Of a stretch of DNA of 59,494 nt, positions 7,699 to 28,492 are shown piece after piece (the first letter of the stretch is position 1; each line of letters begins with the position of its first letter). The notes below the pieces were generated by a model. The model was not told the DNA's origin and searched no databases. It saw nothing but the letters and a program-made list of their open reading frames with translations. The position numbers and the translations under genes are program-made. This DNA comes from Candidatus Woesearchaeota archaeon (GTDB taxonomy: Archaea; Nanobdellota; Nanobdellia; Woesearchaeales; UBA9642): contig JAFGLI010000006.1 of the NCBI GenBank assembly GCA_016928115.1, forward strand, positions 1 through 59,494. The letters run 5' to 3'.

Positions 7699-7795
7699 AG
7701 GAATTATTTTATGTTTTCGTAAATTTTGGTTTATTTGAAAAAATAATGACAAAAGAAATAAAATTTATAAACCAATAGCTTTTTTCAAAAATAGT

Positions 7796-7912
7796 GCCTA
7801 GGTCGCATAACCTGGTATTGCGCCAGCTTGGAAAGCTGGTCCCTCTGGGATTCCCGGAAACCTTTTAGGAAAATGTCTTAAGGGTTGGGAAATTCAAATC
7901 CGGGCCTAGGCG
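7796..7912 (+). tRNA. tRNA-Ser(GGA) with an apparent 35-nt intron in the T-arm (about 7858-7892)
   Basis: Acceptor GCCUAGG/CCUAGGC, D-stem GCA/UGC, anticodon arm CCAGC-UUGGAAA-GCUGG, variable arm CCC-UCU-GGG, T-stem CCCGG (7853-7857) pairs CCGGG (7900-7904) only if 7858-7892 is removed. Confidence 0.88.
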
Positions 7913-7923
7913 TTTTTCTTTAT
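7901..7923 (+). repeat. 23-bp direct repeat, copy 1 (3' end of tRNA-Ser plus terminator)
   Basis: cgggcctaggcgtttttctttat identical at 7901-7923 and 7997-8019. Confidence 0.95.
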
Positions 7924-7996: not shown

Positions 7997-8019
7997 CGGG
8001 CCTAGGCGTTTTTCTTTAT
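7997..8019 (+). repeat. 23-bp direct repeat, copy 2
   Basis: Identical to 7901-7923. Confidence 0.95.
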
Positions 8020-27823: not shown

Positions 27824-28492
27824 TTATAAACGCATCCATCTTATTTCATAATAAGTAACATCAGCTTCATCATCCACTATTCCTATTAATAATTTCTTTC
27901 TTGTTGAGTGTGCAACCCTGTTTTTTGCAGCAAACTCATGCCATGTTAATGTGGAGCCTTCACTTACAGGATAAACTATCCATTTGGCATGCTCTTCTCC
28001 TGGTTTAATGCCTCTGTCATATACTCTAAAATCAGCTCCGAATTTAAGGGCTGTTTTTACAATATAGCCTCTGTTTCTTATATCTTTAAAGACACAGTAT
28101 CGGGTCCAGAAATTAGGCTCAGCTTTTTTTGCTTTTTTAAGAAAAGTTTCAAACCTTATTTTTCTATTATTTGTACTCACAATATTCAGCTTGCCTTTTT
28201 CCATTAGATATAGTCCTTCAAGCAGAGACAACTGCAATTTGCCATTATCAAGTATCTTACCGAACCTGTTTTTGTTGTAGAAGTTTTTTGCCTCATCAGA
28301 ATCATCTGTGACTATTTTTTCTTTTATGAAAACTGCTCTAACCTTGTTTTTTTGTGATTTTGCCCTGACTTCCTTTACTTCTAATTTTTCAGGGATTTTT
28401 TCAACTAAATCATCAAGTTCTGTGGCTTTAGAAACTTTTTTTTTCTTTTTAGTGGATGTTGATTTTTTAGTTTTGGATAATTTTTTTGTCAT
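27824..28492 (-). CDS. endA: tRNA-splicing endonuclease with lysine-rich N-terminus
   Basis: FWTRYCVFKDIRNRGYIVKTALKFGADFRVYDRGIKPGEEHAKWIVYPV...STRKKLLIGIVDD. Confidence 0.94.
   Translation of the reverse strand: MTKKLSKTKKSTSTKKKKKVSKATELDDLVEKIPEKLEVKEVRAKSQKNKVRAVFIKEKIVTDDSDEAKNFYNKNRFGKILDNGKLQLSLLEGLYLMEKGKLNIVSTNNRKIRFETFLKKAKKAEPNFWTRYCVFKDIRNRGYIVKTALKFGADFRVYDRGIKPGEEHAKWIVYPVSEGSTLTWHEFAAKNRVAHSTRKKLLIGIVDDEADVTYYEIRWMRL

Follow-up and report, generated by a model that had tools for sequence, protein, structure and literature searches.

The question raised by this locus is whether a serine tRNA gene whose T-arm is interrupted by 35 nucleotides is a working gene with an unusual intron or a damaged one, and, if it works, how its precursor could be spliced. 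The gene lies in the window, by which we mean the whole stretch of 59,494 nucleotides analysed here, and belongs to a woesearchaeal genome of 774 kb in 23 contigs that is 91.5% complete. The gene and its flanks are made up as follows.

7764 to 7771, plus strand: TATA-box-like sequence TTTATAAA, 25-32 nt 5' of the tRNA start (direct reading; putative function)
7796 to 7912, plus strand: interrupted tRNA-Ser(GGA) gene (direct reading, Infernal, and ARAGORN on the exons)
7796 to 7857, plus strand: 5' exon, tRNA positions 1-53 (direct reading)
7858 to 7892, plus strand: predicted 35-nt intron AAACCTTTTAGGAAAATGTCTTAAGGGTTGGGAAA at 53/54 (homologous insert in tRNA-Ser(TGA); helix covariation in relatives)
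7893 to 7912, plus strand: 3' exon, positions 54-73, with T-loop, T-stem, acceptor strand and discriminator G (direct reading)
7913 to 7923, plus strand: T-rich 3' flank TTTTTCTTTAT, terminator-like, common to the tRNA-Ser(TGA) copy (putative function)

Direct re-reading of positions 7796 to 7912 recovered all of the tRNA parts named in the preliminary description. The acceptor strands are GCCTAGG and CCTAGGC, with the discriminator G at 7912, the anticodon loop is TTGGAAA (anticodon GGA), the variable arm is long (TCCC-TCT-GGGA), and the T-stem strands CCCGG (7853-7857) and CCGGG (7900-7904) enclose the T-loop TTCAAAT (7893-7899). The exons by themselves make a complete tRNA in which all stems are intact. 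A shift of the insert by one base in either direction destroys TTCAAAT, so that the junction between positions 53 and 54, where the insert had been placed from the start, is the only one that leaves a standard T-arm. ARAGORN makes no tRNA call for the window or for the interrupted gene, and reports tRNA-Ser(gga) once the 35 nucleotides are omitted. In a whole-genome Infernal search with the Rfam tRNA model the interrupted gene scores 32.5 bits over 117 nt (cut-off 29), and an Rfam scan of the window with fast filters does not list it. Elsewhere in the window, positions 655 to 928 hold an archaeal SRP RNA gene (Rfam RF01857, 106 bits).

Our reading is that this tRNA-Ser(GGA) is almost certainly a functional gene with a lineage-specific intron at 53/54, which would be excised by EndA and followed by joining of the exons by RtcB. 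Relatives, whose genomes are mostly fragmented assemblies, were gathered with a model of four spliced tRNA-Ser sequences and with BLAST over 359 genomes of the order. An ordinary T-loop of seven nucleotides is present in 140 of the 162 distinct Ser-type genes that were parsed, a sample biased towards genes resembling the queries. An insert at 53/54 occurs in six tRNA-Ser genes, two in this genome and one each in genomes G165, G168, G248 and G031, and the carriers span four families of the order, the latter four genomes representing three other families. The carriers in G168, G248 and G031 are tRNA-Ser(TGA) genes. That in G165 is a tRNA-Ser(CGA) gene, missed by the parser, whose anticodon loop is also longer, consistent with an intron at 37/38. 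The closest homologs of tRNA-Ser(GGA) have uninterrupted T-arms with no insert at 53/54. The elements of the predicted splice motif are the following.

7852 to 7855, plus strand: 5' strand of the central helix, UCCC, in the exon (invariant in all six 53/54 genes)
7856 to 7858, plus strand: bulge GG|A at the 5' splice site (direct reading; RNAfold on cores)
7859 to 7862, plus strand: 5' strand of the intron helix h', AACC (four of four pairs covary in relatives)
7883 to 7886, plus strand: 3' strand of the intron helix h', GGUU (four of four pairs covary in relatives)
7887 to 7890, plus strand: 3' strand of the central helix, GGGA, in the intron (invariant in all six 53/54 genes)
7891 to 7893, plus strand: 3' splice site AA|U, with no closing exon helix (direct reading; RNAfold on cores)

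All six 53/54 genes share one layout: the exon ends with UCCCGG, the intron ends with GGGAAA and the next exon starts with UUCAAA, while intron bases two to five are paired with the tetranucleotide just before GGGAAA. The intron helix exists in the versions AACC/GGUU, AGCU/AGCU, AAUC/GGUU and GAUC/GAUC. Among the five distinct junction sequences, on which the covariation statistics entirely rest, standard pairing holds in 40 of 40 pair cells, each of the four intron-helix pairs shows a change on both sides, and only 1 of 500 shuffles equals what is observed; slid registers of the junction alignment give no double changes. The central helix is invariant and so gains no support from covariation itself. 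The predicted cleavage register is identical in all six genes, with the cut sites two bases past the strands of the 4-bp helix, and for several of the cores RNAfold recovers the 5' bulge of three nucleotides unprompted. We also scanned 647 kb of DNA for a pattern of T-stem, central helix, intron helix, 7-nt T-loop and acceptor; the only matches are the three tRNA-Ser genes that carry this T-arm insert alone, and shuffled sequence gives none.

These results bear directly on the motif as it was first drawn. The central helix UCCC/GGGA, the GG|A and AA|U sites and the AACC/GGUU helix are correct on re-reading, and the weakness of the outer exon helix is confirmed, with a shifted GA/UC as the most that it offers. 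The inner helix had been placed rightly and drawn too short, the intron hairpin being longer than stated. No exon-side pairing outside the central helix is conserved among the six 53/54 genes, as a strict hBHBh' motif would need; what is present is a central helix, a 5' bulge and an intron helix, with the 3' site in an open loop. The missing exon-side helix makes this a relaxed motif of the HBh' form. A strict BHB in which the T-stem serves as the outer helix was considered and rejected, since it lacks the spacing for EndA and the covarying helix belongs to the form that breaks the T-stem. A group I intron was likewise set aside, with no Rfam match at 7858-7892; 35 nucleotides are far too short for such an intron.

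Several woesearchaeal tRNA-Ser genes have a second kind of T-arm insert, within the T-loop at 59/60, and 16 of the parsed ones have it without an insert at 53/54. Here the T-stem serves as the outer helix and the central helix is UUCA/UGAA, replaced in some genes by UUCG/CGAA, a compensatory change; the bulge sequences read AA|N and, in most cases, AG|U, which brings the motif close to the strict one. Both T-arm introns occur together in G168, G248 and G031 (L260, L261 and L275), where they enclose an exon of six nucleotides, UUCAAA. Because the 59/60 motif requires the T-stem beside UUCA, the 53/54 intron would have to go first, and we infer ordered splicing, 53/54 before 59/60, in these three precursors. 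Closely spaced archaeal introns that are removed in order have been described (PMC8450103), and they resemble these genes in that one motif forms only after removal of the other intron; unlike those cases, the T-arm introns of G168, G248 and G031 leave the six-base exon UUCAAA, an arrangement to which the window gene does not belong. An intron at 59/60 is also carried by two Ser-like type II tRNA genes from two families (L161:61-176 and L164:61-176) whose anticodon loop, CTGAAAC, presents the Phe anticodon GAA. In the genome of the window itself, tRNA-Ala(TGC) (contig C22, from position 732 onward; L027) has an insert in the T-loop, at 59/60, whose BHB motif is near-strict.

In the mechanism that we propose, UCCC in the precursor, composed of the base before the T-stem and the first three T-stem bases, would pair with the GGGA located close to the intron's 3' end, with the intron hairpin stacked beyond the 3-nt bulge. 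The bonds to be cut, GG|A and AA|U, would then each lie two bases past the 3' terminus of one strand of the 4-bp helix, a bulge-helix-loop (HBh') arrangement, so that EndA could cleave both sites and RtcB could ligate the exons. The T-stem CCCGG/CCGGG and the loop UUCAAAU, as in a normal tRNA, would form only after splicing. The tRNA-Ser(GGA) would presumably be transcribed, cleaved, ligated and used in translation in this way. RtcB is encoded on contig C17, and the candidate endonuclease is encoded in the window.

27824 to 28492, minus strand: tRNA-splicing endonuclease EndA, 222 aa (PF01974 and PF02778)

This EndA gene is about 20 kb from tRNA-Ser(GGA). Its product combines one N domain and one C domain in a single protein, the two-domain layout of an alpha4-type gene, and no second EndA or beta subunit was found with PF01974 or PF02778 in the 91.5%-complete genome. 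Its best matches come from archaeal genomes mostly labelled Woesearchaeota, with top identities of 66-77%, so that the organism is taken to be a DPANN archaeon of the Woesearchaeota type, not a crenarchaeote. The catalytic Y158, H168 and K199 are invariant among 28 homologs. The lysine-rich N-terminal tail varies in length among relatives. An AlphaFold2 monomer model (mean pLDDT 81) has its nearest match in the alpha4 EndA of M. jannaschii (1A79; TM-score 0.93 over the target, rmsd 1.6), which is likewise a single protein of N and C domains with the catalytic Tyr, His and Lys. From the model and the gene, the window EndA looks like a single-gene, alpha4-type, homotetramer-like enzyme. A CSL/ASL, taken as a loop of 11-18 residues with a lysine near the active site, is absent: a short turn stands at its place, with only 1-2 residue indels among the 28 homologs, and the S. 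tokodaii enzyme has a 10-residue insertion there relative to the window EndA. The EndA of G031, which carries a 53/54 intron, is of the same kind and likewise has no CSL/ASL. We considered the lysine of the short loop (NGK) as a substitute for a CSL/ASL; it is conserved in many homologs, not in all, and the idea was dropped as speculation.

Yoshihisa 2014 (PMC4090602) lists introns at 53/54, as well as HBh' motifs, in the tRNAs of archaea, and the intron described here agrees with those in site, motif class and the EndA/RtcB pathway. The known ones are mainly from Crenarchaeota and Nanoarchaeota, whereas here they occur in tRNA-Ser genes of Woesearchaeota, in at least four families, beside a single-gene EndA without CSL/ASL. 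Heavy loads of non-canonical tRNA introns are known from Thermoproteales and some Asgard archaea, and we found no description of T-arm tRNA introns in DPANN or Woesearchaeota in the open-licence literature. The relaxed BHB substrates of Aeropyrum, Nanoarchaeum and ARMAN-2 (PMC6379350, PMC12397907) likewise have a 4-bp central helix and one bulge. According to reviews, relaxed motifs are efficiently removed only by (alpha-beta)2 and epsilon2 enzymes (PMC6379350), which have a beta unit and, in the crenarchaeal and ARMAN-2 cases, a CSL or ASL, in contrast to the one alpha-type gene without the insertion found here. Alpha4 enzymes are said to cleave canonical motifs only (PMC4033280), and the M. 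jannaschii EndA is described as narrow in this sense, whereas the window EndA faces a relaxed motif. A single alpha-type EndA together with a relaxed motif places this lineage off the specificity rule, unless help comes from the tRNA body or from a partner not yet seen. The 53/54 site and HBh' motifs have precedents in archaea; the features that most deserve specialist attention are the mismatch with the enzyme and, in relatives, the six-nucleotide exon. We tentatively propose that in Woesearchaeota a homotetrameric EndA without CSL/ASL may remove relaxed T-arm introns, its broad specificity having arisen by a previously unrecognised route, and that in those members with both introns the 53/54 one goes before the 59/60 one, a proposal that we hold with a little less than even confidence.

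It is possible, if rather doubtful, that the intron is spliced and that a homotetrameric EndA alone is insufficient, so that recognition would be aided by a structural subunit that escaped detection or by the intact body of the tRNA. Such help would suit the narrowness of the known alpha4 enzymes, and the closest solved sequence to the window EndA is the alpha subunit of the broad (alpha-beta)2 enzyme of N. equitans. On the other hand, a beta subunit of the N. equitans type should have shown itself in our searches, because the query itself matches the N. equitans beta subunit at 1e-16, and a single EndA gene is the rule in the order. Among 61 genomes surveyed, 59 have a match, nearly all as a single gene, the best-completed genomes included; three genomes have two hits, and in two of these the hits include contig-end pieces. 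Relaxed splice motifs are at present tied to EndA enzymes that possess either a beta unit or a special loop, and this lineage offers a direct test of that connection.

The insert at 7858-7892 is very probably a real intron rather than the mark of a pseudogene. The preliminary description had held that a second, intact tRNA-Ser(GGA) gene would point to a pseudogene; none was found in the 91.5%-complete genome by the Rfam tRNA model, by a search with the spliced sequence or by BLAST, and the same searches found no intact tRNA-Ser(TGA). What the spliced tRNA-Ser(GGA) query did find is an interrupted tRNA-Ser(TGA) on contig C12 (31860-31984, minus strand), in which the match breaks after base 62 and restarts at 63, and the homologous insert at 53/54 is 43 nt long, AAACCTTTTAGGGATAATTAGAAAATTCTTATAGGTTGGGAAA. 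The five differences between the spliced exons of the two genes are confined to the anticodon arm, and a compensatory change from A-U to G-C is among them. The intron interior has diverged, and short 5' and 3' flanks are in common, so that the GGA and TGA genes look like duplicates that kept the intron. The tRNA-Ser(GCT) and tRNA-Ser(CGA) genes of this genome are uninterrupted. Among the 3566 codons of 11 window genes, UCU occurs 39 times, UCC 13 times and UCA 51 times. A decayed or insertion-inactivated gene, whose 35 nucleotides are accidental and whose task in the cell has passed to another tRNA, would agree with the silence of ARAGORN on the interrupted form, and at 91.5% completeness an intact tRNA-Ser(GGA) copy could be missing from the assembly. 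Nevertheless we consider this explanation very improbable, given that every tRNA stem is intact, that a second isoacceptor bears the same insert, that the insert shows compensatory changes across families and that no replacement gene appears in what has been assembled.

Folding of the whole precursor separates the BHB form from the T-stem form by about 1 kcal/mol, and both lie about 2-3 kcal/mol above a free minimum that pairs the exons otherwise, so that energy is not decisive here. Extremely improbable is an unspliced, unusual mature tRNA that retains the insert as an enlarged T-loop: the T-stem can pair with the insert looped out at that small energy difference, but the TTCAAAT loop stands undivided to one side of the insert, what has been conserved is a helix in competition with the T-stem, and the three relatives with two inserts flanking the T-loop make retention implausible. 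In view of the second gene, the covariation and the encoded EndA and RtcB, the best explanation is the one originally suggested, an intron in the T-arm whose relaxed BHB-type motif EndA would cleave. Essential serine tRNAs of these small-genome archaea can escape ordinary tRNA finders, and such missed tRNAs bear on judging whether these genomes lack tRNAs and depend on hosts.

The surroundings of the tRNA genes show a further feature. A short repeat element composed of two hairpins, AAGGGCTTGACGAACGAAGTGAGGAAACCCTT and CAAGTTTTT...AAAAACTTG, is found whole or in part just 3' of several tRNA genes, in the window and on contigs C3, C14 and C20 of the same genome. After the element there is a copy of the 3' end of the adjoining tRNA, 23 nt for Ser(GGA) (7901-7923 and 7997-8019), 17 nt for His and 48 nt for Trp. 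As judged from these arrangements, the repeat looks like a mini element that may use tRNA 3' ends as attachment sites. The downstream copy at 7997-8019 was considered as an alternative 3' exon for tRNA-Ser(GGA) and rejected, as it has no T-loop. Contigs C20 and C21 start just 64 bases 3' of a tRNA gene.
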